Origin: Actinomycetes bacterium
GTDB taxonomy: Bacteria > Actinomycetota > Thermoleophilia > RBG-16-64-13
Assembly (NCBI GenBank): GCA_021372435.1
Contig: JAJFUK010000111.1
Coordinates: forward strand, 1-44,637
Length of the DNA stretch: 44,637 nt
Direction: 5' to 3'
Part shown: in pieces, positions 1,009-32,625 of the stretch
How the letters are laid out: the number at the start of each line of letters is the position of its first letter
Numbering within the stretch: the stretch's first letter is position 1
Notes under the pieces: model-generated
What the model was told of the DNA's origin: nothing
The model's database searches: none
What the model saw: only the letters and a program-made list of their open reading frames with translations
Position numbers and translations under genes: made by a program

Positions 1009-3189
1009 ATGGGCTACTACCTCGGAGTGGACGGAGGAGGGACCTTCACCGACTGCGCGGCCATGGACGACAAAGGCCGTTTGTACTTCGCGAAGGCCAC
1101 CACCACCAAGGACGACTTCGCCGCCGGCATGTTCGACGCCCTCTCGGCTCTGGCCGATGAATGCGGGACGTCGGTACCCGATCTAATCGCCGAGACGGAG
1201 CGCTTCAATCTGGGAACCACGGTGGGCACCAATCTGCTGGTCGAGCGGCGCGGCGCCCGGACGGGATTGCTGACCACCGCCGGACACGGTGACGCGATCC
1301 TCATCATGAGAGGCACCGGCCGGACCGCGGGACTCGAGTTGGACCTGCTGTTCCACCCGCAGGCCACTCAGAAGCCGCTTCCGCTGGTGCCGCGGGCGCT
1401 GATCAGAGAGATCGACGAGCGTACCGACTGCGCAGGCAACGAGGTGGTCCCACTGGACGAGGCGGCGGTCGAAGCAGCGGTGCGCAGTCTCGTCGAGGAT
1501 GCCCGGGTGACCGCCCTCGCGATCGCCTTTCTCTGGTCGTTCAAGAACCCGGCCCACGAGCTGCGCGCTCTGGAGATCGTGCGCCGGGTCGCTCCCGCGG
1601 TCTACGTCTGCTGTTCGCACCAGGTGGCGCCGCGTCTGGGCGAATACGAGCGTACGGTGGCCACGGTCATCAACAGCTACGTGGCCCCGGCCTCGGCGGC
1701 GTGCTTCCAGCAGTCCGCCGACCGTCTGCGCCGTTCCGGCCTTAAGCATCCCCTGCTCATCATGCAGACGTCGGGCGGAGTATTGCCCGCGGACAAAGCC
1801 ATCGAGATCCCCCTTACCTCCCTGGGTTCCGGACCGGTCGGCGGACTTATGGGATCGCTGTCGCTGGCCCGAGCACTCGGTCACAAGAACATCATCGCGA
1901 CCGACATGGGTGGAACCTCCTTCGAGGTCGGCCTGATCATCAACGGCGAGCCTCTGGTCGGAGAGGAGAAGATCATCGACCGGTATCGCTACAGGCTCTC
2001 GCAACTGGAAACCACCTCCATCGCCTGTGGAGGCGGCAGCATAGCCCGGATCGACCCATACAGCCGCTCGATAAGGGTAGGCCCGGAAAGTGCCGGGGCC
2101 GAGCCCGGTCCGGTCTGCTACCGACGGGGGGGCACCGAGCCGACCGTGACCGACGCCGATGTGGTGCTCGGACTCCTATCGGCGGACGGTTTTCTGGGCG
2201 GCCGCATGCCCCTCGACCGGGAAGCCGCCCTGCGGGCGGTCGCCGGTCTTGGAGAGCAGGTCGGGCTCGGGCCCACCGAGACGGCTGCCGGCATCCTGCG
2301 CATCAACAACTTGCGGGCCGCCGAGCTCATCCGACAGCAGACGGTAGTACGAGGATACGACCCGCGCGATTTCGTGGTCTACGCATACGGTGGAGCCGGC
2401 CCGCTGCATGCCTTCGCCTTTGCTCAGGAGCTCGGCGTCAAGGGAGTCGTCATCCCCTTAGGCAACGGGGCTTCCACCCTCTCGGCCTATGGCTGCTCTA
2501 CCTCGGATCTAGTGCTCAACGTCGAGAGAGAGCGACTCTTTTTCGCGCCTTTCCCCGCCGACGAGGTGAACAGCCTGATGGTCGAGCTCGAGAACCAGGC
2601 GCTCGATTCCATGCGCGACATGGGGAAATCCGGCCATGAGGTCGAGATCGAACGCTTCGGGCTCATGCGCTACGGCGGCCAGTGGCTGCACAGCCTCCTC
2701 GTGCATGTGCCCCCCGGCGAGCTGACGGCTGAAGACCTCACCGCGGTCGTGGACGACTTCCGCGCGATGTACGATGCGCTCTACGGTCACGGCGCCGGCG
2801 TGGTGTCGCAGGGCGTGGAGATGGTGACCGCCCGCATCCGCGTAGTCGCCCGCCTCCAACGCCCGACCCAGGCCGCCCAGGAGCCCTTCAACGAAGCAGC
2901 CGGCACGAAGGGCCGTCTCGGCACACGTGAGATCTTCTGGCCCGACCGCATGGAACGGTTGGAGAGCGACGTCTTCGACGGTCGTGAGATCGGCCCCGGC
3001 GAGCGCATCGCCGGTCCGGCCGTGGTCGAACTCCCCTACACGTCCGTAGCGGTCGGAGTCGACCAGATGCTTGAATGCGATCTTTTCGGCAACTTCCTGC
3101 TGCGGCTTGATCAGCCGGCCGGCCGCGCTGCAGGCTGCGCGGCCGCGCAGCGGCCGGCCGCGGGGGCTCTGCTATGGGCAGCAACATGA
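1009..3189 (+). CDS. HyuA-type hydantoinase/acetophenone-carboxylase-like ATPase subunit
   Basis: A 726-residue protein of the hydantoinase A/oxoprolinase family (usual length about 650-720). The N-terminus has the ASKHA phosphate loop GVDGGGTFTD, followed by FNLGTTVGTN. A second nucleotide-binding loop, ATDMGGTSFEVG, lies near residue 300, and a glycine-rich GGAGPLHAFAFA segment near residue 465. The family uses ATP to activate a carbonyl or amide substrate: hydantoinase, 5-oxoprolinase, acetone carboxylase beta and acetophenone carboxylase. It starts just after the MmgE/PrpD stop, and its 3' end overlaps hyuB by 16 bp, which suggests translational coupling and a stoichiometric complex. The C-terminal 30 residues are an Ala/Arg-rich tail of low complexity. 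The fused zinc tail on its partner favours a carboxylase over a hydrolase, but this is inference. Confidence 0.88.
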   Translation: MGYYLGVDGGGTFTDCAAMDDKGRLYFAKATTTKDDFAAGMFDALSALADECGTSVPDLIAETERFNLGTTVGTNLLVERRGARTGLLTTAGHGDAILIMRGTGRTAGLELDLLFHPQATQKPLPLVPRALIREIDERTDCAGNEVVPLDEAAVEAAVRSLVEDARVTALAIAFLWSFKNPAHELRALEIVRRVAPAVYVCCSHQVAPRLGEYERTVATVINSYVAPASAACFQQSADRLRRSGLKHPLLIMQTSGGVLPADKAIEIPLTSLGSGPVGGLMGSLSLARALGHKNIIATDMGGTSFEVGLIINGEPLVGEEKIIDRYRYRLSQLETTSIACGGGSIARIDPYSRSIRVGPESAGAEPGPVCYRRGGTEPTVTDADVVLGLLSADGFLGGRMPLDREAALRAVAGLGEQVGLGPTETAAGILRINNLRAAELIRQQTVVRGYDPRDFVVYAYGGAGPLHAFAFAQELGVKGVVIPLGNGASTLSAYGCSTSDLVLNVERERLFFAPFPADEVNSLMVELENQALDSMRDMGKSGHEVEIERFGLMRYGGQWLHSLLVHVPPGELTAEDLTAVVDDFRAMYDALYGHGAGVVSQGVEMVTARIRVVARLQRPTQAAQEPFNEAAGTKGRLGTREIFWPDRMERLESDVFDGREIGPGERIAGPAVVELPYTSVAVGVDQMLECDLFGNFLLRLDQPAGRAAGCAAAQRPAAGALLWAAT

Positions 3190-5549
3190 CCGCGTCCCCA
3201 CAACAGCCGGACATGATGGGCGCCGACGTCGTCTGGGACGGCATGGTCCGCGGTTATGCTCCCCCCGAGGTGCTCTCCATCAGCCCGCGGCTACGGCTGC
3301 ACACGGCCGAGGAGCCCGAGGTCGATCCCATCTCGTACGAGGTGATCCGCAACAGCCTCCAGAACATCAACCTGGAGAACGGCCACACGATCCAGAAGCT
3401 CAGCATCTCGCCCATCACCATGATCAACCGGGATTTCCAGTGCGCCATCCTGACCGAGAGCGGCGACGTGATGTTCATGGGGCCGTATCTCATGTATCTG
3501 GCCAACACGCTCGGCCTCATGACCAAGTGGGTGCTCGAGAACCGGAGCGAGTCGCCGGGAATCGAAGACGGCGACGTCTTCTTGTGCAGCGATCCGTATG
3601 TGGGGAGCTCTCATCAGCAAGACACGGAGCTCACCTCGCCGGTGTTCTGGGAGGGCGAACTCTTCTGCTGGGTGGCGAATTCCGTCCACTACAGCGATGT
3701 AGGCGGACCGGCTCCGGGCAGCTTCTGCCTGGCTTCCCGGACCATCTGGGAAGACCCGCCGCTTTTCCCCCCGATGAAGCTCGTCGAGCGAGGCGGCCTG
3801 CGGGCGGACATGGAGCAGCTCTATCTGCGCCAATCCCGCGTGCCGGCCACGGTCGCCATGGACCTTCATGCGGCGCTGGCGGGCCTGACCGTTTCCAGGC
3901 AACGCATCCTCAAGCTCCTGGAGCGCTACGGGTCGAAGACCGTGAAGGCGGTGATGAAGAGGACTCTTGACGCGGGCGAGCGGGCCTTCGTCGACAAGCT
4001 GCGGATGATCCCCGACGGACGCTGGTCGGAGCGCATCTACACCGAGGCGGCGGTGCCGGGCGACACAGGCATCTACATCAGCCAGGTGAATATCACGAAA
4101 AACGGCGACTACCTCTACGTCGATAACGAGGGGACGTCGCCTCAGATAGGCGCCATCAACAACACCTATGCCGGCTTCGTGGGCGCGGTGCTTGCTCCCC
4201 TCACCCTCATGCTGGCCTACGACCTCGGGGGCGTATGCGGCGGCGTGAGCCGGAGGGTGAAGTTCCGCCCGACTCCCGGCACGATCACGTGCGCCGATTA
4301 CCCCGCTCCTATCAGCGGCGCCGGCGTCTGCAACATGCCCATGGTGGTGGCGACCGCGACCGGCGCCACAGCCAAGATGGTGGCCTGCGCGGCTCCTCCC
4401 CTGCGGGACAAGGCCCTCGGCATCGCCGACGTCCATGCGTACGGCGGGTGGATCTTCAACGGCATCAACCAGTACGGCAAGTTCTTCATGGCCATGCATT
4501 CCGGGATGGCGCCCGGCGCCATCCCCGCCTCCCCCGGCCGCGACGGCATCGACACCGGGGGCCAGGACTGGGTGCCCGGCATGGAAGCGTCGAACGTCGA
4601 AGAGAACGAGCTGTCTTGGCCGGTCCTCACCCTCTTCCGTCGGGAGAACCGGGCGGACGAAGCCGGCGCCGGCCGGTACCGCAGTGGAGTCGGTGCTGAG
4701 GAAGCCTGGATACTGCACGGTACCGACTCCCTCGATACCCAGGTCTACAACAACGAGAGCTTTACGAAATGCCAGGGCCTTCTGGGAGGTAACCCGGGCG
4801 GTCGGGCCTTTTTCCGGGTCAAGCGGGATACCGACGTGGCCGCCCGGCTGGCGGCAGGCAGGGTCCCGCAGAGTGTGGACGAGGTGTCGGGCGAAGAGAT
4901 CCCGCTCTTCTGGAAGGGGGGACCCATAGAGCTCGATAGGATGTCGGTGTGGACGCTCAACCTGCCCAACTTCGCCGGCTATGGCGATCCCCTGGATCGC
5001 GACCTCGAGCTGGTGACGCGTGATCTCCTCGAGGGCATGACCACGGCCGAAGACGCGTTCCGTGCCTATGGGGTGGTCGCCGACGGGGACGGCGTGGTCG
5101 ACGCCCGGAAGACCCAGATGGAGCGGGAGAAGCGCAGACGGCAGCGTTTGGAGGACGGCCTACCTCCCCGTGAAGTCCGCGGCCTTATCCGGCCACTCGA
5201 GGGCTCGGAGCACCGGGCGGTCGGCGACAGGCTCGAGGCCGTCCGGACACCCCGCGGTATCCGTTATGCCTGCACATGCGGCCAGGACCTGGGCCCCGAG
5301 GGGGCCGATTTCAAGGACTCCTGCGTAGTGAGAGAGACCCCGGTTGACGCCATCGGCCCTGGATACTCCTCTTTTGCCGAGGAGATGATGCGCAAGATGT
5401 GCTTCAGGGAGTTCTTCTGTCCCCGCTGCGGAGCGCGCTTGGCGACTGAAGTGGCCCGCTTGGGTGACGACTATCTGTGGGACATCGATCTGCGGCTCTC
5501 GCAAGGACGGCAGGACCCCCGCGAGCGAGATAGCGGCGAAGAGACGTGA
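3174..5549 (+). CDS. HyuB-type subunit with fused C-terminal zinc-ribbon (carboxylase gamma-like) domain
   Basis: A 791-residue protein. Residues about 45-640 are a hydantoinase B/oxoprolinase domain, with DPISYEVIRN near the start and the DGDVFLCSDPYVGSSHQQD substrate loop. Residues about 690-780 are an added domain with cysteine pairs C700-x-C702 and C749-x2-C752 and the tail YLWDIDL, resembling the small zinc-binding gamma subunit of acetone carboxylase or the small Zn subunit of acetophenone carboxylase. In those enzymes the gamma part is normally a separate polypeptide, so this looks like a fusion. The start ATG at 3174 lies inside the 3' end of hyuA; a second ATG at 3186 is possible. 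Hydantoinase B membership is clear; the carboxylase reading rests on the tail. Confidence 0.86.
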   Translation: MGSNMTASPQQPDMMGADVVWDGMVRGYAPPEVLSISPRLRLHTAEEPEVDPISYEVIRNSLQNINLENGHTIQKLSISPITMINRDFQCAILTESGDVMFMGPYLMYLANTLGLMTKWVLENRSESPGIEDGDVFLCSDPYVGSSHQQDTELTSPVFWEGELFCWVANSVHYSDVGGPAPGSFCLASRTIWEDPPLFPPMKLVERGGLRADMEQLYLRQSRVPATVAMDLHAALAGLTVSRQRILKLLERYGSKTVKAVMKRTLDAGERAFVDKLRMIPDGRWSERIYTEAAVPGDTGIYISQVNITKNGDYLYVDNEGTSPQIGAINNTYAGFVGAVLAPLTLMLAYDLGGVCGGVSRRVKFRPTPGTITCADYPAPISGAGVCNMPMVVATATGATAKMVACAAPPLRDKALGIADVHAYGGWIFNGINQYGKFFMAMHSGMAPGAIPASPGRDGIDTGGQDWVPGMEASNVEENELSWPVLTLFRRENRADEAGAGRYRSGVGAEEAWILHGTDSLDTQVYNNESFTKCQGLLGGNPGGRAFFRVKRDTDVAARLAAGRVPQSVDEVSGEEIPLFWKGGPIELDRMSVWTLNLPNFAGYGDPLDRDLELVTRDLLEGMTTAEDAFRAYGVVADGDGVVDARKTQMEREKRRRQRLEDGLPPREVRGLIRPLEGSEHRAVGDRLEAVRTPRGIRYACTCGQDLGPEGADFKDSCVVRETPVDAIGPGYSSFAEEMMRKMCFREFFCPRCGARLATEVARLGDDYLWDIDLRLSQGRQDPRERDSGEET

Positions 5550-5571
5550 CACCGGAGAAAGGAAGACCGTG

Positions 5572-6363
5572 ATGCTGCTGAAAGACCGCGTGGCCATCGT
5601 CACCGGAGGAGCCAAGGGCATGGGGCGGGCCATCGCGCAGCGGTTTGCCGGCGAAGGCGCCAAAGTGACCGTCGCCGACATCGACGTGCCGGCCGCTGAA
5701 GAGACGGTCCGCGCGATCAGGAGGACGGGCGGCGAGGCCCTTGCCTTCGAATGCGACGTCACCGACGGCCGCCAGATAAGAGAGATGGTGGCCGCCACGG
5801 TCGCGGCTTTCGGCAAGCTCGACATCCTGGTCAACAACGCAGGCGCGGTGGTCGGCGCGCACGGCAGGCCGACCAACCTCACCGCCCTCAGCGAGGATGC
5901 CTGGGACCGGGTGATCGCCCTGAACCTCAAGGGGGTCTTCCTCTGCAGCAAAGAGGCGGTGCCCTACATGAAGGCCAACGGTTACGGCAAAATCATCAAC
6001 ATGTCCTCGCTGGGCGCCATCAATCCTCCGTCGCCACACCCGCACTACCACGCTGCCAAGGCCGGCGTTCTGGGGCTGACCTACGACATGGCCGCCGAAC
6101 TGGCCAAGGACAACATCTATGTCAACGCCATCATGCCCGGACCCTTCCGCACGCCGTTCTTCGGCGAGATCGTGGAGGACAAGACCAGCGAAGAAGCCGA
6201 GGCCTTCTTCGCTTCGGTGGGAAGCAACGCCCCTCTGGGACGCATGGGACGGCCTGAGGAGATGGCCGGCCCCGCTCTGTTCTTGGCCTCGGAGATGTCG
6301 TCATACGTCACCGGGATAGTCCTGCCGGTGACCGGCGGCCTGCCCCTCCCCGTCCAACGGTGA
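5572..6363 (+). CDS. Short-chain dehydrogenase/reductase (SDR-1)
   Basis: A 263-residue classical SDR. It has the NAD(P) loop TGGAKGMG near residues 11-18, NNAG near residue 84, the catalytic Ser in the NMSSLGA strand and the YHAAK catalytic Tyr/Lys. An acidic residue (VADID) ends the second beta strand, which usually favours NAD+ over NADP+. The start chosen is ATG 5572, behind GGAGAAAGGAAG (5554-5565); GTG 5569 would add one residue. It lies 22 bp after hyuB and 50 bp before AOR-1. It is most like SDR-3 at 36657: both begin MLLKD(R/K)VA and share GGAKGMGR. A role as alcohol dehydrogenase or ketoreductase acting with the adjacent AOR is inferred. Confidence 0.9.
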   Translation: MLLKDRVAIVTGGAKGMGRAIAQRFAGEGAKVTVADIDVPAAEETVRAIRRTGGEALAFECDVTDGRQIREMVAATVAAFGKLDILVNNAGAVVGAHGRPTNLTALSEDAWDRVIALNLKGVFLCSKEAVPYMKANGYGKIINMSSLGAINPPSPHPHYHAAKAGVLGLTYDMAAELAKDNIYVNAIMPGPFRTPFFGEIVEDKTSEEAEAFFASVGSNAPLGRMGRPEEMAGPALFLASEMSSYVTGIVLPVTGGLPLPVQR

Positions 6364-6413: not shown

Positions 6414-8306
6414 ATGAGTGACGAGAAGTCCATAGAGCAGCCCTGGGCGGGCATGACCTGTAGGATCCTGCGGGTGGACCTCTCCAGCGGCACGATCTCG
6501 AGGGAGGAGCGTGACGAACGCTACTACCGCAAGTGGCTGGGGGGCTCGGGACTGATCGCGCAGATACTCCTCACCGAGGTCCCGGCCGGCGCCGACGCCC
6601 TGGGACCCGAGAACAGGCTGGTCTTCGCCCTCAGCCCCGTCACCGGGACGCCCGTCTATGCCGCGGGGCGTAACGGGGTCGGCGCCAAGTCGCCGCTCAG
6701 CGGCGGTATCGCCCTGTGCCAGTCGGGCGAGTATTGGGGGGCCGAGCTGAAGAAGGCCGGTTACGACGTCCTCATCGTAGAGGGCAAGGCGGACAAGCCG
6801 GTGTATATCTCCATCAAAGATGGTGAGGTCGCCATCCGCGACGCCGCCGCTTTGTGGGGTCTGCTGACGAAAGACACGCAGGCCGCTATACGGGAGGAGC
6901 TCGGCGACAAGCGGGTCCGTGTCGCCATGATCGGGCCGGGTGGAGAGAACCTCATACCGTTCGCCTGCATCATGAACGGGCCCTTCGACGCCGCGGGCCG
7001 CGGCGGTCTGGGAGCCGTCATGGGGTCCAAGAACCTCAAGGCGGTGGCTGTGCGGGGGACCGGCCGAGCCCGCGTCTTCGATCGGGAAGGCGTGAAGGCC
7101 TTCAACACCTGGCTGACCCAGAAGCACTGGGACCACTTCTGGATCCAACAGGTGCTCCCGGAGTTCGGCACCGGGGGACCGGAGATGGAAGGCATGGAGA
7201 CGGTCGGCCATCTTCCGGTGCACAACTGGAGGGGCGCCCCGTTCGCAGAGGGGATCAAGAACGTCCATGGTGGGGCGCTCAAAGAGAGGATGGGCCTGCC
7301 GCAGGAGGGCTGCTTCGGTTGCCCGCTCCGCTGCAAGAAGCGGCTCAGATCCGGTGGTCCTTACTTCGTGGACCCGGACTACGGCGGCCCCGAATATGAG
7401 GCCATGTGCGCCCTCGGCACCAACCTTGAGGTCGACGATCCGGAAGCCATGGTGAAGGCGAACGAGATCTGCAACGCCTATTCCCTCGATGTTATCTCCA
7501 CGGGCAACACGATCTCGTTCGCGATGGAGTGCTTCGAAAGAGGCCTGCTGACCCTCGAGGACACCGGGGGACTCGAGCTCCGCTTCGGTAACGGTCCGGC
7601 CCTGGTCCAATGCGTGGAGCTCATAGGCCGGCGCGAGGGCATCGGCGCTTTGCTGGCTCTGGGCTCCGCCGAAGCGGCCAAGAAGATCGGCCGTGGAGCA
7701 GAGGCGTTCTCCGTAGAGGTGAAGAGCGTCCATCCGGGGATGCACGAACCCCGCCTCAACCCCGCGTTCGCCCTCGGCTTCATGGTCAACCCCAATGGCG
7801 CGGACCACTGCGCCAACGTCCACGACGACATCCTAGCCGCCGAGCACGGAATCAAGGACTTCAACCAGCTGGGCTTCTACGATACGGTACCGGCTCTGGA
7901 CATCGGCCCTCGGAAGGTGGCGCTCTTCAAGGTGGGGCACATCCGGGAGTTTCTCAACGATTGCCTGCTTACGTGCCACCTCGCGTACGTCGGCGTCACC
8001 TATAAGCAGCCTGCCGACATCCTGAACGCTGTGGCCGGATGGGATGTCAGTTCGGCCGAACTGATCCGCAGCGCAGAGCGCATCCTCACGGCCGCCCGGC
8101 TGTTCAATATCAATCAGGGTCTCAAGGCGACGGACGACCGGCTGCCGCCTCGGTTCTATGAAGACAAGACCGTCGGCCCGTTCGTCGCCGGACTCAACCC
8201 TGAGAAGATGGAAAAGGCCAAGAAGTACTACTACACCCTTATGGGCTGGGACCAGGACGGGGTACCGACTCCGGAACGCGTCGAGGAGCTCTACATCTAT
8301 GGCTGA
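6414..8306 (+). CDS. Aldehyde ferredoxin oxidoreductase family enzyme (AOR-1)
   Basis: A 630-residue tungsto- or molybdo-bispterin enzyme. The N-terminal domain runs from RILRVDLSSGTI through WLGGSGL to the pterin-binding region with GRGGLGAVMGSKNLKAV. The [4Fe-4S] ligands are C300-x2-C303-x3-C307 (CFGCPLRC) plus C521 in DCLLTC, which aligns with the DSLGxC motif of archaeal AOR. PEYEAMCALG matches the conserved substrate-side loop. AORs oxidise aldehydes to acids with ferredoxin, and some reduce acids or aromatic thioesters. RBS GCAGGAGG precedes the ATG. It sits between an SDR and the mutase E gene. Other members (BamB, YdhV-like, formaldehyde type) mean the substrate cannot be read from sequence. 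Closer in motif to AOR-2 than to AOR-3. Confidence 0.93.
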   Translation: MSDEKSIEQPWAGMTCRILRVDLSSGTISREERDERYYRKWLGGSGLIAQILLTEVPAGADALGPENRLVFALSPVTGTPVYAAGRNGVGAKSPLSGGIALCQSGEYWGAELKKAGYDVLIVEGKADKPVYISIKDGEVAIRDAAALWGLLTKDTQAAIREELGDKRVRVAMIGPGGENLIPFACIMNGPFDAAGRGGLGAVMGSKNLKAVAVRGTGRARVFDREGVKAFNTWLTQKHWDHFWIQQVLPEFGTGGPEMEGMETVGHLPVHNWRGAPFAEGIKNVHGGALKERMGLPQEGCFGCPLRCKKRLRSGGPYFVDPDYGGPEYEAMCALGTNLEVDDPEAMVKANEICNAYSLDVISTGNTISFAMECFERGLLTLEDTGGLELRFGNGPALVQCVELIGRREGIGALLALGSAEAAKKIGRGAEAFSVEVKSVHPGMHEPRLNPAFALGFMVNPNGADHCANVHDDILAAEHGIKDFNQLGFYDTVPALDIGPRKVALFKVGHIREFLNDCLLTCHLAYVGVTYKQPADILNAVAGWDVSSAELIRSAERILTAARLFNINQGLKATDDRLPPRFYEDKTVGPFVAGLNPEKMEKAKKYYYTLMGWDQDGVPTPERVEELYIYG

Positions 8307-8393: not shown

Positions 8394-9890
8394 TTGATCA
8401 AGGTCAAGCAGCAGCGCATGGACGAAGATCTCTTTATGCGGAAACACAAGGAAGTGCTTGCCATCTGGCCCACCGGCCGAGACGTCGACCTCGCCGAGGC
8501 GGTCGCGTACCAGAAGGCCCTCCCGGACGGCAAGCGGTTCCACAAGATCCTGCAGAAGGTGCACGAAGAAGGGCGCATCACGCTTTTCCCCCGGCAGGGC
8601 ACCCCGCTCGTCGAAGACGAGATCGCGCTGATCCGTTCGTTGAACGAGCTGGACATCCACCTTCTGCCCTTCACGACCGACAGCTACACGCGCAACCTGC
8701 AGCTGGACAAGGTGGAGAAAGGCCTGCAGGAGACCATCAGGACCGGCAGACCGGCCCTCAATGGGTACCCCCTCATCAACCACGGGGTGAAGACGAACCG
8801 CCGGGTCGTAGAGGCGTGCGACGGGGCCCTCGACCCGCGCTCCTCACGGATCGGCCAGGCTCTGGTGGCGGAGATCGCCTTCGCTTCGGGCATGAACGCG
8901 TTCCCCAACAGCTTCTTCGGGTGGATCGCGGGCTATGACAAGAAGGCCACCGTCGAGGAATGCATCGAGACGGCTCAGTACACCGGCCGGCTCATCGGCT
9001 ACTACGCCGACCACGGGGTGACCATCACCACCGACTGCCACGGCTGGCTGCCCAACTTCGTCATCCCCATGAGCATCAACATGGCCACGCAGATCATCGA
9101 GAGCCTGGTTTCGGCCGAACAGGGCGTGAGGAGCGTCTTCCCCCAGGTGAACATGCAGGGCTGCCTGTTCCAGGATCTCGCCGATATGCGGACTCTGCCC
9201 AAGCTGATGCGGGAGTACCTCGACAAGTTCGGCCATGCCGACGTGCTCATCCCCGGCGTGTTCGGGAGTCAGTCGCCGCTCTTCCCCTTTCCGCAGGAGA
9301 TGGGGAGCGCCTTCGGCTACATCGGCTACACGGCGGTCACCGCCGCCCTGGGAGGTTGCGACGCCGTCTCCGTCAAGACGGTGGACGAGGCTGCGGGCGT
9401 GCCCACCATGGATTCCCACCGGGAGAGCTACCTGGCAGCCAAGTGGATCCTGGGGGTCTTGGAGGACCAGGAGATCGAGATCGACAACGAGATCATCGAC
9501 CAGGAAGAGGCGGTGGCGACCGCGGAGGTGCACGCCATCCTGGAGAAGGTCCTGGAACTGGGCGATGGCGACCTGGTCGTCGGCACCATCAAGGCGGTGG
9601 AGGCGGGGGTGCTCGACTCACCCATGTCCATCAACATCCATGCTCAGGACAAGGTGCTCGGCATCCGCGACAACACGGGCGCCTGCCGGTACCTGGAGTT
9701 CGGCCACCTGCCCATCCCGGAGGACATCAAGGATTTCCACCGGCAGAAGGTGGCCGAACGTGAAAAGGCCGAGGGCCGCAGGCTCGACTACTACGCCTCC
9801 ATCGAGGACTTCTGGGGCATCAGCAAGAGCCGACTGAAGGGCCTGCCGGCGGACAACTCGTCGTTAGGAGGGGGGCAGCAGGCGTGCTAG
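8394..9890 (+). CDS. Glutamate mutase E-like (GlmE-like) adenosylcobalamin mutase subunit, altered active site
   Basis: A 498-residue TIM-barrel protein that aligns over its whole length with the recalled Clostridium cochlearium GlmE: WPTGRDVDL near the start, LNGYPLINHGVK, and RYLEFGHLPIPEDIK near the end. In glutamate mutase the substrate carboxylates are held by an arginine claw; its counterparts here are R67, R100 and R149. The adenosine-contacting Lys and Glu are present as K328 and E332. However, the residue aligned with amine-binding Glu171 is P171 and with Tyr177 is W177, while Y181 is kept. The alignment is ungapped from R149 to Y181. The start is TTG 8394 behind GGAGGA. Its B12 and reactivase partners lie about 19 kb downstream. 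A dicarboxylate substrate lacking an amino group is likely. Confidence 0.88.
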   Translation: MIKVKQQRMDEDLFMRKHKEVLAIWPTGRDVDLAEAVAYQKALPDGKRFHKILQKVHEEGRITLFPRQGTPLVEDEIALIRSLNELDIHLLPFTTDSYTRNLQLDKVEKGLQETIRTGRPALNGYPLINHGVKTNRRVVEACDGALDPRSSRIGQALVAEIAFASGMNAFPNSFFGWIAGYDKKATVEECIETAQYTGRLIGYYADHGVTITTDCHGWLPNFVIPMSINMATQIIESLVSAEQGVRSVFPQVNMQGCLFQDLADMRTLPKLMREYLDKFGHADVLIPGVFGSQSPLFPFPQEMGSAFGYIGYTAVTAALGGCDAVSVKTVDEAAGVPTMDSHRESYLAAKWILGVLEDQEIEIDNEIIDQEEAVATAEVHAILEKVLELGDGDLVVGTIKAVEAGVLDSPMSINIHAQDKVLGIRDNTGACRYLEFGHLPIPEDIKDFHRQKVAEREKAEGRRLDYYASIEDFWGISKSRLKGLPADNSSLGGGQQAC

Positions 9891-23736: not shown

Positions 23737-24570
23737 ATGGGCCTGAACGGTAAGGTAGCGATCATCACCGGGGCCGGCACCGGCATCGGCAGGGCCATAA
23801 CAGAGCGGTTCGTGGCGGACGGGGCTCACGTCTGTATCACGGGCCGCAGGACGGAGGCGCTCGCAGACACGGCCGCCTCGTTGCCCCCGGAACAGATCAA
23901 GATCTGCCCGGCCGATGTGACCGATCCCGCCGCGGTGGACCGGGTAGTCGCGACCGCCCTCTCCTTCGGCGAAGGTATCCACATCCTCGTCAACAACGCC
24001 GGCATGGACCAACCGATGGGCACCGTCGTCGATCTGGACGCGGCTCTGTGGGACCGGGTGCTGCAGGTCAACCTCACCGGGCCGTTCCTCATGATGAAGG
24101 CGGTGATCCCCCACATGATCGAAGCGGGGGGAGGTTCCGTCATCAACATCTCTTCTCTGGCGGGCCTCCTGGGCGTTCCGGGCCTACCGGCCTACTGCGC
24201 ATCGAAAGGCGGACTGATCAGCCTGACGAAGCAGGTGGCCGTCGACTACGGCGTGCACAACATCCGCTGCAACGTGGTATGCCCAGGGGCCACCAAGACC
24301 GAGATGTTCGTCAGTTCCATGACGCCCTTCGCAGAGACCTGCGGCATCGAGGTAGAAGAGGTCTTCCGCACGTTCTCAGAGGACGTCCCGCTGCGACGCG
24401 TCTCTAGTCCTTGCGAGATGGCGGGTCTCTGCAGCTTTCTGGCCGGCGACGATGCCGGCTTCGTGACGGCCGCCTGCATCCCCGTCGACGGCGGGGCCGT
24501 CGTTGTGGACGTCTCCGGCGCCGCCATCAACCGGCTGGCGGCGAAGCATCGCGGCTCCGGGGGTGCCTAG
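23737..24570 (+). CDS. Short-chain dehydrogenase/reductase (SDR-2)
   Basis: A 277-residue classical SDR with TGAGTGIGRA near residue 11, NNAG near residue 87, the SSLAGLLG strand with catalytic Ser and YCASKGG with Tyr/Lys. ITGRR at the end of the second beta strand (Arg rather than Asp) suggests possible NADP(H) use, unlike SDR-1. ATG 23737 follows GGAGG at 23722-23726. An insertion around residues 190-215 (SSMTPFAETCGIEVEEVF) lies in the substrate-lid region. It is followed by the MoaD/ThiS-like gene. The substrate is unknown. Confidence 0.88.
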   Translation: MGLNGKVAIITGAGTGIGRAITERFVADGAHVCITGRRTEALADTAASLPPEQIKICPADVTDPAAVDRVVATALSFGEGIHILVNNAGMDQPMGTVVDLDAALWDRVLQVNLTGPFLMMKAVIPHMIEAGGGSVINISSLAGLLGVPGLPAYCASKGGLISLTKQVAVDYGVHNIRCNVVCPGATKTEMFVSSMTPFAETCGIEVEEVFRTFSEDVPLRRVSSPCEMAGLCSFLAGDDAGFVTAACIPVDGGAVVVDVSGAAINRLAAKHRGSGGA

Positions 24571-24652
24571 ATATGATCCGAAGGACCGGGACCGCCACCG
24601 GCGGGGACGAACACGGGGCCGGGTCGGTAGAGAGACGTCGCGGGAGGAAGAG

Positions 24653-24931
24653 GTGGCGATAAGGGTCAGACTGCTGGGCGACCTCCGCCGGTTCGTCGAA
24701 TCCGACACCTTGGAGATCGAAGGCGGCGAGCGCAGCCTCGGAGCCGCCTTGGATGAGCTTGTCCGGGGCCATCCCCGCCTGGGGCAAGAGCTGTTCGACG
24801 ACCAGGGCAGGCTCCACTATGCCGTCGTCCTTATGACAAGCGGCCGGCGGGCTCTGTGGCCCGGCGACAAGGAGAGGCTGATAGAGGACGGCGGCGAGCT
24901 GATGCTGACACGGTTCCACACCGGCGGATAA
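24653..24931 (+). CDS. MoaD/ThiS-like sulfur carrier protein (MoaD-1)
   Basis: A 92-residue beta-grasp protein starting IRVRLLGDLRRF and ending in the diagnostic Gly-Gly (FHTGG). The C-terminal Gly of MoaD/ThiS proteins is adenylated and thiocarboxylated to deliver sulfur, for MoaD to build the dithiolene of the pterin cofactor. GTG 24653 is preceded by GGAGG (24643-24647). MoaD-like genes often sit near AOR genes, and three AORs plus two molybdopterin oxidoreductases are encoded here, so a cofactor-assembly role is likely. It lies directly upstream of the terminator that precedes the large operon. Confidence 0.82.
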   Translation: MAIRVRLLGDLRRFVESDTLEIEGGERSLGAALDELVRGHPRLGQELFDDQGRLHYAVVLMTSGRRALWPGDKERLIEDGGELMLTRFHTGG

Positions 24932-25052: not shown

Positions 25053-25151
25053 AGTGTCCACGTGATACAGAACACTGTTCCGCATACAGAACATGACAAG
25101 GCCTGCAGAGCCGCTCCGTGCGCAGTCGTGAATCCGGGTCGCAGTCGTGAA
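25025..25151 (+). repeat. Four pairs of direct repeats and a palindrome in the operon leader
   Basis: TGACAAGGCCT occurs at 25025-25035 and 25094-25104, GAATCCGGG at 25039-25047 and 25130-25138, ATACAGAACA at 25065-25074 and 25084-25093, and CGCAGTCGTGAA at 25121-25132 and 25140-25151. The last two pairs are both spaced 19 bp start to start, close to two helical turns. GAACACTGTTC at 25070-25080 is an 11-bp palindrome just downstream of the promoter. These are candidate operator sites for a regulator not encoded in the window. Confidence 0.6.
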
Positions 25152-25161
25152 GGGAGACAGA

Positions 25162-27717
25162 ATGACAACTGAGTCCTCGACAATCATCCCCGTGCTCCAA
25201 GGCACGGTCCACCCGGAGGCGGCCGAGGAGATCGAGTCTCTCACCGTCATGACCGAGCGCCTCAAGAAGCTCAAGAAGGAATGGGAGAACGCGGCGCCGC
25301 AGGTCTACGTCGATGACACGCTCCTTTTCACCGAGTCCTGGAAAGAGACCGAGCAGATGCCGGTGGACTTCCGCTGGGCCAAAGCCTTTCAGAAGAGGCT
25401 GGAGAACTGCCCCATCCTCATCCGCGACGGCGAGATCATCGTCGGCTCGTCGACGAAGTTCATCCGCGGCAACAACACGCTCTGCGCCGTGAAACCGCGC
25501 GAGATCCTGGCCATGTGCGAGAGCGGCCGCTTCGACCGCAAGCTGAGTGACATCTCCTCGACCGTCATCGACCCTGAGGACCTGGAGAAGCTCAAGGCCG
25601 ACGCCCGGTACTGGGTCGAGCATATGAACCCGGTCAACTACGTGAACGTCGCGCTGGAAGAGGAGCTCGGCAAGGAGCACTTCGACCTCTTGTTCGACCA
25701 CGCCATGATCTTCGAAGGTCGGGGCGTGCGCGAGAATCCCGACCGTGGCCTATTCCAGGGGTACGGCGCCATGGGAGGCGGGGTCATCATGCTGTCCGGC
25801 GACGTGCTGAGGCACGGCTTCAACTACGTCATCGACCTGGCCAAGGCCGAGATGGCGAAGATGAAGAGCGAAGGCGCGCTGGAAGACCGGGCCAGCAGTA
25901 ACGCCCTGCGCAAGTGGTACCTGCTCAAATCCATCGTCATCATGTTCGAGGCCGTCATCACCTTCGCGAGGCGGCACGCCGCGCTGGCCCGCGAGATGGC
26001 CGACAAGACGGGCGACCCGGTCCGCAAGGCCGAGCTCCTCAAGATCGCGGACGTATGCGAGCACGTTCCTGCCGAACCTCCGCGTGACTTCTGGGAGGCC
26101 GTCCAGTCGGTGCGCTTCATGCATCTGGCCGCGTGGAAGGAAAGTCCCGAACGGGCCGAGGTGGGAATCGGAAGGATCGACCAGTTCTGGTATCCCTATT
26201 ACAAAGCGGATATCGAGAGCGGCAGGCTCACCCGTGCGCAGGCGGCGGAGCTGATCGGCGCTATGTGGCTGAAGATCCGCGAGGTCGAGAACCTGGTCAC
26301 CATCAAGCGCGAGCATCGCGCCGCCCCAGGCAGCCAGCTGCCGAACGTCACGCTGTGCGGCCGGGACAAGGACGGCAACGACCTCACCAACGAGCTCTCC
26401 TGGATGATCCTAGAAGTCATGGTTCAAGTCCATCTGTCCGAGCCGGCCGTATACGTCCGCTACCACGAGGACCAGGACGAGAACTTCATCATCCACGCGC
26501 TCAGGTGCAACCGTGAGTTCGGCGGTGGGAACCCGGCCTTCTTGAACGACGAGCTAGGTACCCGGCGCTACCTCGACCGGGGCATCCCGATAGAAGATGC
26601 CTGCAACTGGAGCGCGAGCGGCTGCCTCGGCTATCACCTGGAATGCGCCGAGCACATGGCCGGTGCCTTCAACCTGGTGCAAGCCAAGGTGATGGAGGTC
26701 ACCCTGCACGACGGCTTCGATCCGCGCACGGGCAAGCAGGTGGGCCTGCACACCGGCGACGTGACCAAGTTCACCTCCATCGAGCAGTTCTACGAAGCCT
26801 TCCTCAAGCAGGAGGACTACTTCGCGGAGAGGATGCGCGACCACTACTTCATCTGGTGGACCACCGAGATAGCGAACAGCCCCATGAGCGGATACCGGGC
26901 GGGCATGCTCTATCGCGACTGCATCCCGGCCGGGCTCGCCTCGCGTGAGGGCGGCTGCCGCTATCCCATCGGCAAGATGTCGTGGGTCGGCGACAAGGGC
27001 ATCTGCGACTGCGCCGACTACCTGGCCGCCATCCAGTACCTGGTCTTCGACCAGAAGAAGATCACCATGGCTCAACTTCTAGAAGCCATGGATGCCAACT
27101 GGGAGGGCCATGAGGACATCCGTCAGATGTGCTTGAAGGCGCCCAAGTACGGCAACGATGACGACTACGTGGACGATTTCTACGTTCGTCTGTCGCGTGA
27201 CACGCAGAGGATCCTGCAAAGCCGGCCCGACCCCATCACGGGCGAGAAGCCTATGTTGTTCAAGGGGGCGGCGGCCGGCCACGTGACTCAAGGCAAGGCT
27301 GTAGGCGCCATGCCCAACGGCCGCTACGCCGGCACTCCGATCTACGACGGCGGCACCTCGGCTATGGCCGGCGGGGACGTCAACGGCCCGACTGCCCTCA
27401 TCCGGTCGGCCACCAAGTATCCGACCCCCTACGAATGCGCAGGGGTCGCCCACAACATGAAGTTCTCCAAGGCGGTGCTCAACTCCCCGGAGAAGCTGGC
27501 CAAGGTGGCCTCCCTCATCAAGACCTTCACCAAGCGCGGCGGCTGGCACATCCAGTTCAACATCCACAGCGCCGAGGAGCTCATGGAAGCCCGCAGAGAT
27601 CCGGCGGCCCACAAAGACCTGCTCGTCCGCGTAGGAGGCTACAGCGCCTACTTCGTCGATCTGCCGCCGGAGTTGCAGGACGAGATCGTCGAGCGGACGA
27701 TGCATGAGGTGGGCTGA
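25162..27717 (+). CDS. Glycyl radical enzyme, PFL-like family, unassigned substrate
   Basis: An 851-residue enzyme with the family's overall length. The glycyl radical loop RVGGYSAYF places the radical on G826, 26 residues from the end. The catalytic thiyl cysteine is C488 in SASGCLGYHLE. In 4-hydroxyphenylacetate decarboxylase and the diol/choline/isethionate lyases this loop reads GCxE, with Glu as a base; here G490 replaces it, leaving the usual acid-base partner absent. The N-terminal region (DGEIIVGSSTKFIRGN) and late THGxx-like GAAAGHVTQGKAVGAMPNGR fit the family. ATG 25162 follows AGGGAG; a GTG at 25147 is less likely. The activase is next downstream. Fumarate-adding, decarboxylating or C-X lyase chemistry all remain possible. 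Confidence 0.92.
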   Translation: MTTESSTIIPVLQGTVHPEAAEEIESLTVMTERLKKLKKEWENAAPQVYVDDTLLFTESWKETEQMPVDFRWAKAFQKRLENCPILIRDGEIIVGSSTKFIRGNNTLCAVKPREILAMCESGRFDRKLSDISSTVIDPEDLEKLKADARYWVEHMNPVNYVNVALEEELGKEHFDLLFDHAMIFEGRGVRENPDRGLFQGYGAMGGGVIMLSGDVLRHGFNYVIDLAKAEMAKMKSEGALEDRASSNALRKWYLLKSIVIMFEAVITFARRHAALAREMADKTGDPVRKAELLKIADVCEHVPAEPPRDFWEAVQSVRFMHLAAWKESPERAEVGIGRIDQFWYPYYKADIESGRLTRAQAAELIGAMWLKIREVENLVTIKREHRAAPGSQLPNVTLCGRDKDGNDLTNELSWMILEVMVQVHLSEPAVYVRYHEDQDENFIIHALRCNREFGGGNPAFLNDELGTRRYLDRGIPIEDACNWSASGCLGYHLECAEHMAGAFNLVQAKVMEVTLHDGFDPRTGKQVGLHTGDVTKFTSIEQFYEAFLKQEDYFAERMRDHYFIWWTTEIANSPMSGYRAGMLYRDCIPAGLASREGGCRYPIGKMSWVGDKGICDCADYLAAIQYLVFDQKKITMAQLLEAMDANWEGHEDIRQMCLKAPKYGNDDDYVDDFYVRLSRDTQRILQSRPDPITGEKPMLFKGAAAGHVTQGKAVGAMPNGRYAGTPIYDGGTSAMAGGDVNGPTALIRSATKYPTPYECAGVAHNMKFSKAVLNSPEKLAKVASLIKTFTKRGGWHIQFNIHSAEELMEARRDPAAHKDLLVRVGGYSAYFVDLPPELQDEIVERTMHEVG

Positions 27718-27795: not shown

Positions 27796-28713
27796 GTGGT
27801 AGTGGCAAGCGCTACGGGGACCGTGTTCAACATCCAACGGTACAGCATCGACGATGGTCCGGGTATCCGGACTACCGTCTTCTTCAAGGGCTGCCCACTC
27901 AGCTGCGTATGGTGTTCAAACCCGGAGTCGCAGAACCTTGCGCCGGAGTTGATGCATCGCGACTCGCTCTGCAAGCGGTGTTACAGGTGTGTGGCGGCGT
28001 GCCCGGAGGGCGCCATCTCGGTGGGCCCTGATGGCGTCGAGATCGATCGCGACGTCTGCACCGTGTGCGGTGATTGCGTGGAGGTATGTCCTCACGGCGC
28101 GATGCGCATCACCGGCCGGGAGATGACGGCCGACGAGGTGTTCGACGTCATCGAACGCGACGCCGACTTCTACCGTGACTCCGGTGGTGGCGTCACTCTG
28201 TCGGGCGGAGAAGTCCTGTTGCAGCCTGATTTCGCCGCCGCTTTGCTCCAGCGGTGCCGGGAGGCGGGCTTCCACACCTGCGTGGATACGGCGGGCCAAG
28301 GGTCCCTAGAAGCCCTACGAAAGATCATTCCCTACACCGACCTGTTCTACTTCGACATCAAACACATCGACCCGAAGATACACCGCGCCCAAGCCGGGCG
28401 GTCAAACGAGGTCATCCTGCGTAACTTCCAGGAAGTGGCAGCAAGCGGAGTCCCCTTGGTCGTGCGTGTACCCGTCGTTCCCGGGTTCAACGATACGAGC
28501 GACGCCATCTCCGACATCGCGGAGTTGGTCGCGGTCCACGCACCGGGCGCCACCGTTCACCTGCTGCCTTACCACCGTTACGGCCAGCAGAAGTACGACA
28601 TGCTGGGACTGGACTACGAGCTGGCGGGAGCCGAGACTCCCTCCCCGGAGTTCCTCAGGGCGGCCCGCAACATAGTGGAGTCGCGGGGACTCACGTGCGA
28701 GGTCACAGTCTAG
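27796..28713 (+). CDS. Glycyl radical enzyme activating enzyme (radical SAM)
   Basis: A 305-residue radical-SAM protein. C33-x3-C37-x2-C40 (KGCPLSCVWC) holds the SAM-binding [4Fe-4S] cluster. YSIDDGPGIRTTVFFKGC is the typical activase start. Two ferredoxin clusters follow (C59/62/65/69 and C88/91/94/98), as in activases of decarboxylase- and lyase-type enzymes but not in PFL-AE. GGGVTLSGGE is the SAM-contacting GGE-type motif. The activase abstracts hydrogen from Gly826 of the upstream enzyme using 5'-deoxyadenosyl radical. GTG 27796 is used; GTG 27802 is better spaced from GCGAGGAG. The B12 subunit gene follows 35 bp downstream. Confidence 0.93.
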   Translation: MVVASATGTVFNIQRYSIDDGPGIRTTVFFKGCPLSCVWCSNPESQNLAPELMHRDSLCKRCYRCVAACPEGAISVGPDGVEIDRDVCTVCGDCVEVCPHGAMRITGREMTADEVFDVIERDADFYRDSGGGVTLSGGEVLLQPDFAAALLQRCREAGFHTCVDTAGQGSLEALRKIIPYTDLFYFDIKHIDPKIHRAQAGRSNEVILRNFQEVAASGVPLVVRVPVVPGFNDTSDAISDIAELVAVHAPGATVHLLPYHRYGQQKYDMLGLDYELAGAETPSPEFLRAARNIVESRGLTCEVTV

Positions 28714-28748: not shown

Positions 28749-29180
28749 ATGGACCATCTAGGCTGCGTCATCACAGGGACCGTGGGCGTTGACGCCCACG
28801 TCATTGGCACGAAGATCGTATCCAGGGCCCTGCGGGAGGCCGGGTTCAGGGTGGTGGAGTTGGGCGCTCAGACGCCTCCGGAGGAGTTCATCATGGCCGC
28901 CCAGGAGACCGCGGCCGACGCCATGATGATCAGCTCGCTCTACGGCATGGCCGAACTGGACCTCGAGGGCTTTCGCGACAAGTGTACCGAGGCGGGTCTG
29001 GAGGACATCATCCTCTATGTAGGCGGCATCTTGGGGGTTTCTCGCCGTGATTTCCCCGAGGACGAGGCGAAATTCAAGCGGATGGGGTTCGACCGGGTCT
29101 ACCCGCCCGAGACCGATATCCGGGTGGCCATCGAAGACCTGAAGGCCGACCTCAACCGAAAACGGGCCGGGCGCCCGTAA
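28749..29180 (+). CDS. Glutamate mutase S-like (GlmS-like) cobalamin-binding subunit
   Basis: A 143-residue B12-binding protein with the size of GlmS/MutS (about 137). The base-off/His-on motif D15-x-H17-x2-G20 is present, followed by ISSLYG (SxL motif) and LYVGGILGV (GG motif), so all cobalamin contacts are kept. The text aligns throughout with GlmS, including DKCTEAGLEDIILYVGG and GFDRVYPPETD. ATG 28749 is used; GTG 28713 is an alternative with 12 more residues. It should pair with the GlmE-like barrel at 8394 to form the adenosylcobalamin mutase. It lies between the glycyl radical activase and the GlmL-like gene, so it is co-expressed with the radical enzyme. Confidence 0.93.
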   Translation: MDHLGCVITGTVGVDAHVIGTKIVSRALREAGFRVVELGAQTPPEEFIMAAQETAADAMMISSLYGMAELDLEGFRDKCTEAGLEDIILYVGGILGVSRRDFPEDEAKFKRMGFDRVYPPETDIRVAIEDLKADLNRKRAGRP

Positions 29181-29217: not shown

Positions 29218-30588
29218 GTGGGAAGCATACGGCTCTTCGTCGATCTCGGCAGCACGTTCACCAAGCTGGTGGCTTTCGATCTTGAGGCTGAGGAGCTCCT
29301 CGGCCGCGTGCAGGTGCCGTCCACGGTAGACCATGACGTGACCGTTGGTCTGGAGCAGGCCTTCTCGCTCCTCGCGGAGACCGTCCCGATCGATGAGACC
29401 GATCGCCGGCAAACGCTGGCCTGCAGCAGCGCGGCCGGCGGACTCCGAGTCGTCTGCATCGGCCTGGTTCCAGAGTACACCACTGAAGCCGGCCGCCGGG
29501 CAGCCCTGGGAGCCGGAGCCAAGATCGTCGGTTCGTACTCCTTCGAACTCTCCGAGGCCGAACTGCGGGAGATCGAGGAGACCGGCCCCGATATCGTGCT
29601 GCTGACGGGAGGCACCGACGGCGGCAACAAGAAGGTGATCACCCACAACGCCGCCCTGCTGGCCCGGAGTGACTCCCGGGTGGCCAACATCATCGTCGCC
29701 GGCAACAAGTCGGCGTACGACGACGTCGAGAGCCTCTTCGCCGGCTCGGGCAAGAACGTCATCTATACAAGCAACGTCATGCCCGAGATCGGAGTGCTCG
29801 AGGTCGAGGCCGCCAACCACAAGATCAGGGACCTCTTCATCGCCCGCATCACCCAAGCCAAGGGTATCGCCCGGGCGAAGAGCATGATAGCCGACGTCAT
29901 CATGCCTACCCCGGCGGCCGTCCTCGAAGCCGCGAAGCTCTTCGCCGGCGGCGTCGACGGTCGCCGGGGCATCGGGGAGCTTCTCCTTGTCGACGTGGGA
30001 GGCGCAACCACCGACGTCTACTCAGTGGCCACGGGGGCTCCCACGTCGGGCGCGGTCCGTTCCCTCGGCCTGCCCGAGCCATACGCCAAGCGCACCGTCG
30101 AAGGCGACCTGGGTCTGTTCCACAACCTCGACACCTTGATGACACTCGCCGGGAGGGAGTCCCTGCCCGCGGGCTTCGATGACATCGTGGCCGCTATGTG
30201 CCACGAGAACAGCGTGCCTACCGGCGACGAGCAGACGGCGTGCCACCTGCTGCTCTCGCGGGTCGCGGTGCGCTCAGCGGTGGACCGGCACGTAGGGTCG
30301 TTGAAGTACATCGTCACGCCCAACGGCGAGGTGGTGGTGCAGCGGGGCAAGGACCTCACCGGGCTCCGTTGGGTCGTGGGGGCGGGCGGGCCGGTCTCGT
30401 TCTCGGCCGACCCGGTCAAGGTGCTCGAGGGCGCGCTCTTCGACGAGGCCTTCCCCCTGCTGCTTAAGCCGAAGGCCCCCGAGTTCCTGCTCGACGGTCA
30501 GTACGTACTTTTCGCCCTCGGCTTGCTCGCCCAGAGCGAGCCGGGGAAGGCGCTCAGACTCATGCAGAAATACGTCGTACACCTATGA
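29218..30588 (+). CDS. GlmL/MutL-like mutase reactivating ATPase
   Basis: A 456-residue ASKHA-fold protein of the MutL/GlmL family. Phosphate loops are VDLGSTFTKLVAFD at the N-terminus and LVDVGGATTDVYSV near residue 263. GLVPEYTTEAGRRAALGAGAKIV and LLTGGTDGGNKK are family hallmarks. GlmL proteins are encoded between glmS and glmE in clostridia and are thought to reactivate or protect the B12 mutase. GTG 29218 starts it 37 bp after the GlmS-like gene. The E subunit normally next in line is missing here and is located about 19 kb upstream. Confidence 0.9.
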   Translation: MGSIRLFVDLGSTFTKLVAFDLEAEELLGRVQVPSTVDHDVTVGLEQAFSLLAETVPIDETDRRQTLACSSAAGGLRVVCIGLVPEYTTEAGRRAALGAGAKIVGSYSFELSEAELREIEETGPDIVLLTGGTDGGNKKVITHNAALLARSDSRVANIIVAGNKSAYDDVESLFAGSGKNVIYTSNVMPEIGVLEVEAANHKIRDLFIARITQAKGIARAKSMIADVIMPTPAAVLEAAKLFAGGVDGRRGIGELLLVDVGGATTDVYSVATGAPTSGAVRSLGLPEPYAKRTVEGDLGLFHNLDTLMTLAGRESLPAGFDDIVAAMCHENSVPTGDEQTACHLLLSRVAVRSAVDRHVGSLKYIVTPNGEVVVQRGKDLTGLRWVVGAGGPVSFSADPVKVLEGALFDEAFPLLLKPKAPEFLLDGQYVLFALGLLAQSEPGKALRLMQKYVVHL

Positions 30589-32120: not shown

Positions 32121-32591
32121 ATGAGACCCACATATGACGAGATCGTGCAGTGGATGAAGGACTACTTCGCCGAGTACAACGCCGGCGCGCAGAATCCGGA
32201 GACCGTGCACGCCATGGACAAGTACTTCGCCCCGGATCTCACCTTCATCCCGTACATGTACGTGTTCGGCGGGCCGGGCAACGCCATAAGGAGCAGAGAG
32301 GACTTCTACGGCATGTTGACCGGGCACTCGGAAGACTACGAGAAGTTCGTAGTGCACGACATCTTCGTCGACGAGAAACGCATGGTCGCGGTGGCGTCCC
32401 TTCAAGCGACCATCTATGAGACCGGCAGCGATCGCGTGAAAGTGCAGAAGGACTATCTACCGCTCTACGAGCTGTCGGTCGATGAGAAGGGCTCGCTCAA
32501 GATCGACACCATCCGGTTCTTCTGGGAAGCGGCCCCGCCTGAGGTCGAGGCAGCCGCGTACACGGTCGATGAGTCCAAGTGGGGGAAGTGA
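32121..32591 (+). CDS. SnoaL/NTF2-like protein 2
   Basis: A 156-residue paralogue of the preceding protein: TYDEIVQWMKDYFAEYN, HAMDKYFAPDLTFIPYMY, SREDFYGML and IDTIRFFWEA correspond segment by segment. The start ATG 32121 agrees with its sister protein; an upstream ATG at 32088 would add 11 residues and overlap the previous gene by 4 bp. The two probably arose by tandem duplication and may form a heterodimer. The function is unknown. Confidence 0.75.
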   Translation: MRPTYDEIVQWMKDYFAEYNAGAQNPETVHAMDKYFAPDLTFIPYMYVFGGPGNAIRSREDFYGMLTGHSEDYEKFVVHDIFVDEKRMVAVASLQATIYETGSDRVKVQKDYLPLYELSVDEKGSLKIDTIRFFWEAAPPEVEAAAYTVDESKWGK

Positions 32592-32625
32592 CTCTAGCTA
32601 CGGACAAGTGCAAGGAAGGCATCAC

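Follow-up and report, generated by a model that had tools for sequence, protein, structure and literature searches.

The GlmE-like protein encoded at positions 8394–9890 of the window (the whole stretch of 44,637 nucleotides that was analysed) is probably a subunit of an adenosylcobalamin (AdoCbl) mutase whose dicarboxylate substrate lacks a 2-amino group; it would share a catabolic pathway with an unclassified glycyl radical enzyme (GRE). That it is not a glutamate mutase is well supported by genome context, whereas the lack of an amino group in its substrate, likely in our view, is read from the residues of the substrate site. The features of the window on which the argument draws are as follows.

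85–1005, + strand: MmgE/PrpD family protein, truncated by the contig start (PF19305, PF03972)
5464–6363, + strand: short-chain dehydrogenase SDR1, true start probably internal (PF13561)
6414–8306, + strand: aldehyde ferredoxin oxidoreductase (AOR)-family protein AOR1, directly upstream of GlmE (PF01314/PF02730)
8394–9890, + strand: GlmE-like mutase subunit E of the P171/W177 type (PF06368, E = 4e-144; residues mapped on PDB 1CB7; clade support 100/99)
24503–24931, + strand: MoaD/SAMP-like small protein upstream of the GRE, a weak match (NF041918, 37 bits, below cut-off)
25147–27717, + strand: glycyl radical enzyme, 856 amino acids (PF02901, E = 6e-162; PF01228), with orthologs in all P171/W177 genomes
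27796–28713, + strand: radical SAM activase of the GRE (TIGR02494, 358 bits, cut-off 174)
28749–29180, + strand: GlmS-like B12-binding subunit with DAHVIG as its DxHxxG motif (NF002612, 186 bits; TIGR01501, 162 bits), fused to GlmE in four relatives
29218–30588, + strand: GlmL/MutL accessory protein of glutamate-mutase-type enzymes (NF040745, 517 bits, cut-off 475; PF13941)
32482–34725, + strand: OYE-family (FMN/FeS/FAD) enoate-reductase-like protein, probable start internal (PF00724, PF07992; NCBIfam OYE/BaiCD models below cut-off)
34735–36621, + strand: second AOR-family protein, AOR2 (PF01314/PF02730)

The substrate site and the P171/W177 clade

The GlmE reading frame comprises 498 amino acids, with a TTG start and GGAGG immediately 5' of it, and its PF06368 match covers model positions 1–439 of 441, which places it in the GlmE family. 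With TIGR01503, the NCBIfam model of methylaspartate mutase, it reaches 395.7 bits against a cut-off of 390.1, such that automatic annotation would read glutamate mutase. Identity with GlmE from C. cochlearium (PDB 1CB7/6H9E) is 38%. The residue table of the first-pass annotation proved exact on mapping: R66, R100, R149, Y181, K326 and E330 of the clostridial enzyme are kept as R67, R100, R149, Y181, K328 and E332, while E171 and Y177 are replaced by P171 and W177, and the stretch from R149 to Y181 shows zero gaps and identical spacing in the two sequences. In the adenosine pocket, residues G69, N123, K328 and E332 are retained. Of the complete glutamate mutase site (R66, R100, R149, E171, Y177, Y181), E171 and Y177 are thus missing, and the sequence alignment offers no acidic substitute for E171 within the ungapped segment. 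In glutamate mutase R66, R149 and E171 serve the glycyl half of the substrate, E171 contacting the amine and R66/R149 the carboxylate, and R100 and Y177 hold the carboxylate of the acrylate half (PMC9545868). Two acidic residues close to the pocket, D147 and D214, were considered as replacement amine partners; canonical enzymes already have Q/E and E at these positions, which would give no sign of a new amine site.

Seventy-one distinct GlmE-like sequences, gathered by one scan of the collection and by six genome searches across several classes, were aligned. Canonical GlmEs are uniform at the site (R66, R100, R149, H150, E171, Y177, Y181, E214 and F216). P171 and W177 occur in every sequence of the window's clade that covers the site (at least 12) and jointly in none of the other aligned sequences, a pattern that, as judged from the alignment, exceeds chance; one distant sequence (L099) carries P171 without W177. 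Further exchanges co-vary with the pair, namely H150 to S or C, E214 to D (A in two sequences) and F216 to H. A family tree with P171/W177 fixed in a separate clade had been proposed as a check, and the maximum-likelihood tree bears this out with support of 100/99; the sister is a sequence from Dehalococcoidia with G171 and E177 and the claw kept. The hosts are Actinomycetota of the window's family, the Peptococcaceae-class genomes G300, G1010, G1011 and G1017, one deltaproteobacterium (L007) and one spirochaete (L008). In one relative (G331; L010 9938–11454 / L142) GlmE is split in two overlapping frames, by frameshift or assembly error, within an otherwise intact cluster. Although this frameshifted copy and the loss of two conserved active-site residues might suggest a decayed, inactive mutase, such decay is very hard to reconcile with identical replacements fixed across several phyla, adenosine-site residues that are all intact, GlmE fused to GlmS and an operon that keeps GlmL.

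The missing ammonia-lyase and the partner glycyl radical enzyme

The module lies in two parts in the window, GlmE at 8.4 kb and the GRE, activase, GlmS and GlmL at 25.1–30.6 kb, with ≈ 15 kb between them. Both companions of a glutamate mutase, a GlmS with DxHxxG and a MutL/GlmL protein, are encoded; the GlmS frame opens at GTG 28695, with the methionine at 28749 fitting the homologs better. The order GRE–activase–GlmE(–GlmS) is contiguous in L007, L008, L133 and L135 and recurs in L134, where the contig ends within the GRE. Next downstream comes GlmL in L008, L133 and L134; in L007 it lies separately on the opposite strand, and in L135 it comes after MmgE/PrpD and a transporter. In L007, L008, L133 and L134 GlmE and GlmS form one chain of 640 amino acids. 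The model of the L008 fusion superimposes its E domain on 6H9E/1CB7 (6H9E_B) with a TM score of 0.92 and its S domain on 1I9C with 0.88, so that the earlier assignment to AdoCbl mutase subunits with the GlmE fold holds on both the Pfam match and the fold of a fused homolog.

Methylaspartate ammonia-lyase adjoins GlmE in all 13 canonical-GlmE genomes searched (E ≤ 3e-108); it was found neither in the 13 P171/W177 genomes, that of the window (G000) among them, nor in the 10 genomes whose GlmEs are altered in other ways. Weak matches in the negative genomes (E ≥ 4e-7) resemble those in control genomes, as expected for other enolase-superfamily proteins. The difference of 13/13 against 0/13 corresponds to a Fisher p of 2e-7, uncorrected for relatedness. 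The window GlmE, which has no methylaspartate ammonia-lyase encoded with it as catabolic glutamate mutases do, is hence supported as standing outside the methylaspartate pathway.

The partner is a GRE. It carries the catalytic Cys493 within SGCLGYHL and the glycyl motif RVGGYSA and has its own activase, the full set of marks of the family. Orthologs of 63–92% identity occur in 13 of 13 P171/W177 genomes, in G1011 as contig-end fragments only (69–79% identical, one of them directly upstream of an activase–GlmE–GlmS–GlmL run), and in none of 22 genomes whose GlmE is canonical or altered in another way, where no match exceeds 41% identity over a long stretch. One fragmented metagenome-assembled genome (G365) has the GRE with no GlmE detected. 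A glutamate mutase that still converts glutamate to 3-methylaspartate, in a pocket that has been relaxed or re-engineered, would fit the score above the TIGR01503 cut-off, the complete arginine claw and the presence of GlmS and GlmL; this we regard as improbable in view of the lyase distribution, the fixed association with a GRE, and the alteration of E171, Y177, H150 and F216, all invariant in canonical enzymes.

With glycyl radical eliminases and X-succinate synthases the window GRE shares the cysteine and glycyl-radical loops and the radical SAM activase; unlike the eliminases (GCxE) and the X-succinate synthases (Arg at Cys+15) it has SGCLG, and it falls far below the cut-off of every NCBIfam GRE model, equivalogs included. 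In an alignment of 11 orthologs Cys493 and the glycyl loop are conserved, and SGCLG is invariant, so that the Glu of eliminases and decarboxylases at Cys+2 is missing. The fumarate-binding Arg of X-succinate synthases at Cys+15 (Arg508 in BSS, Arg492 in MASS) is replaced by Phe, Tyr or His, as counted by offset rather than by structure. Two candidate classes were accordingly rejected, a GCxE eliminase, its Glu position being Gly, and an X-succinate synthase, for want of the Arg and of any match to an X-succinate-synthase model. By fold comparison the GRE is ≈ 21–30% identical to HypD, glycerol dehydratase, CutC, IslA and BSS/MASS, though on a weak AF2 model (pLDDT 61), and the fold ranking was left out of the class assignment. 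With SGCLGYHL in place of GCxE invariant across several phyla, the GRE may itself form a new class.

Set against classical glutamate mutase, GlmES (EC 5.4.99.1; C. cochlearium; PDB 1CB7, 1I9C, 6H9E), the system of the window at 38% identity shares the fold, R66/R100/R149, Y181, K326/E330, the DxHxxG of GlmS and a GlmL-type accessory protein. Its clade is set apart by E171P, Y177W, H150S/C and F216H, by the lack of the ammonia-lyase, and by a partner GRE, an MmgE/PrpD neighbour and, in four relatives, the fused E–S chain.

Neighbouring genes and candidate substrates

An MmgE/PrpD gene lies at most 10 kb from the P171/W177 GlmE in nine of 13 genomes, at 2–9 kb in eight (G000, G337, G343, G318, G326, G359, G300 and G1017) and at ≈ 4 kb or less in G331; with 1–3 copies per genome, the chance of each single proximity is ≈ 0.001–0.02. 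MmgE/PrpD also stands beside many other altered GlmEs, and it appears to occupy the slot filled by methylaspartate ammonia-lyase in the glutamate pathway. It is not near the mutase at the four fused GlmES loci, an observation that counts against the proposal together with the gap of ≈ 15 kb in the window and the TIGR01503 score still slightly over cut-off. Among the PDB matches of MmgE/PrpD homologs the nearest solved relatives are IRG1-like/cis-aconitate decarboxylase and iminodisuccinate (IDS) epimerase. A 2-hydroxy diacid mutase (2-hydroxyglutarate type to 3-methylmalate type), followed by dehydration to a mesaconate-like acid by MmgE/PrpD and reduction by OYE/FAD enzymes, is a possible, though not the preferred, pathway. 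It would account for MmgE/PrpD in the lyase slot and for the reductase genes within the cluster, and the glutamate mutase site does bind tartrate, a hydroxy diacid (PMC9545868). On the other hand, P171 would give the hydroxyl no polar partner, and the solved MmgE/PrpD relatives just named are decarboxylases and an epimerase, not dehydratases.

The claim of the first-pass annotation that no GlmE-family reaction on a non-amino dicarboxylate is known needs qualifying here: classical glutamate mutase has been reported to rearrange 2-hydroxyglutarate to 3-methylmalate in vitro. A literature search that covered few subscription papers returned nothing relevant on this rearrangement.

Besides AOR1, also a neighbour in L003, L005, L010 and L138, and AOR2, which adjoins the module in L007 as well and has a more distant relative in L134/L135, the cluster encodes a third AOR-family (tungsten/molybdopterin) oxidoreductase at 38376–40220. 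SDR1 is syntenic in L003, L004, L005, L010 and L138, and the OYE-family gene is conserved in L140, L141, L143 and L167. Accompanying the AOR genes are short-chain dehydrogenases, the OYE protein, two cupin-like and two SnoaL-like proteins, a vinylphenol-reductase-like FAD protein and a LigM/DesA-like demethylase. The HyuB-like protein encoded at 3174–5546, whose C-terminal part matches the acetone carboxylase gamma subunit (PF08882), is paired with a HyuA-like protein intermediate between caprolactamase and acetophenone carboxylase.

A larger substituted succinate or glutarate, for example a GRE-made aryl- or alkyl-diacid in aromatic (lignin-type) catabolism, is a somewhat more doubtful substrate than a 2-hydroxy diacid. 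The GRE as partner would suit it, the smaller residues at positions 150 and 171 might leave a wider pocket, and cluster neighbours match best, if far below cut-off, vinylphenol reductase, vanillate/syringate O-demethylases and acetophenone carboxylase/caprolactamase. Yet the HyuAB and demethylase-like genes are found only in actinobacterial clusters, and the GRE lacks the Arg that marks the fumarate site of X-succinate synthases.

For the preferred reading, in which the dicarboxylate has no amino group at C2, a mechanism can be outlined. The window GlmE, as catalytic E subunit, would team with GlmS (28.7–29.2 kb) and the MutL-type accessory protein (29.2–30.6 kb) and interconvert two dicarboxylates, one linear and one methyl-branched. 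Conservation of the adenosine site and of R100 argues for the same Ado-radical chemistry. Retention of R67 and R149 suggests that the migrating group carries a carboxylate, which these two would grip while R100 would hold that of the acceptor half. Where glutamate mutase contacts the amine and one of the carboxylates, P171 and W177 would present an apolar surface; that E171 and the hydrogen-bond donor Y177 are lost argues against an ammonium group at C2, and the surface would better suit an apolar or unsaturated C2 substituent, as in 2-methyleneglutarate. An amino substrate might still bind without E171, though this is less likely. On chemical grounds the migrating group should be stabilised, which favours 2-methylene- or 2-hydroxy-type diacids over plain glutarate; a carboxymethyl-type radical that had no amino, hydroxyl or unsaturated group next to it would be chemically poor, and the glutarate/methylsuccinate pair is therefore doubtful. 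The leading candidate substrates are 2-methylene or 2-hydroxy diacids. MmgE/PrpD would probably isomerise, dehydrate or decarboxylate the branched product. Fold, residues, clade, co-occurrence, gene order and the missing ammonia-lyase are computed results, whereas substrate, lack of an amino group, direction and the order of the GRE and mutase steps are inferences.

A precedent for an AdoCbl skeleton mutase acting on a diacid without an amino group is 2-methyleneglutarate mutase from the nicotinate fermentation of Eubacterium barkeri, a single chain with a B12 domain and in this respect like the fused GlmES relatives. Unlike that enzyme, the window genes do not lie in a nicotinate cluster, and we know of no GRE associated with 2-methyleneglutarate mutase. 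In anaerobic alkane degradation a GRE product is passed to a B12-dependent (1-methylalkyl)malonyl-CoA mutase; that mutase resembles methylmalonyl-CoA mutase and its substrate is a CoA thioester, whereas the enzyme of the window is of GlmE type and is proposed to act on a free diacid.

The wider GlmE radiation

Altered-claw GlmE-like proteins are frequent in some genomes of the Dehalococcoidia and deltaproteobacterial classes searched, with up to six matches per genome (G688). Across the aligned GlmEs R100, D96 and E330 are near-invariant, and R66, R149, E171 and Y177 vary. The genome of the window has a second GlmE-like gene (L002 1357–2829, G000:C112; L056) with R66Q, R149N, E171N and Y177E, its own GlmS and GlmL, MmgE/PrpD next door and orthologs in the genus, and it is seen also in L148. 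At L149 9174–15217 (G688:C9) an altered GlmE (G171, L177) precedes GlmS, another GRE (30% identity, motif GCVA, likewise without the GCxE Glu) and MmgE/PrpD. G688 and G706, from the Dehalococcoidia class search, hold 5–6 GlmE-like matches, 40 and 21 GRE matches and 47 and 68 MmgE/PrpD matches, respectively. The literature search, with few subscription papers covered, returned no description of a GRE–GlmES cluster, of a GlmE radiation or of GlmE homologs of unknown function.

Few AdoCbl skeleton mutase reactions have been described, and methylaspartate mutase is the default annotation of GlmE-like proteins. Against this background the P171/W177 clade is a clear, testable case of altered substrate class. 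We see an even chance that several anaerobic phyla have a pathway in which an unclassified GRE and a B12-dependent radical mutase work on one and the same skeleton, that of a free dicarboxylate, the clade being one branch of a wider GlmE radiation with re-cut arginine claws. The clade's obligate GRE partner points towards an anaerobic catabolic route, so far undescribed, that joins two radical chemistries and by which, as the lost amine residue and the GRE indicate, anaerobic bacteria would degrade a compound other than an amino acid, and the altered claws elsewhere suggest several further, undescribed mutase reactions in uncultured anaerobes.
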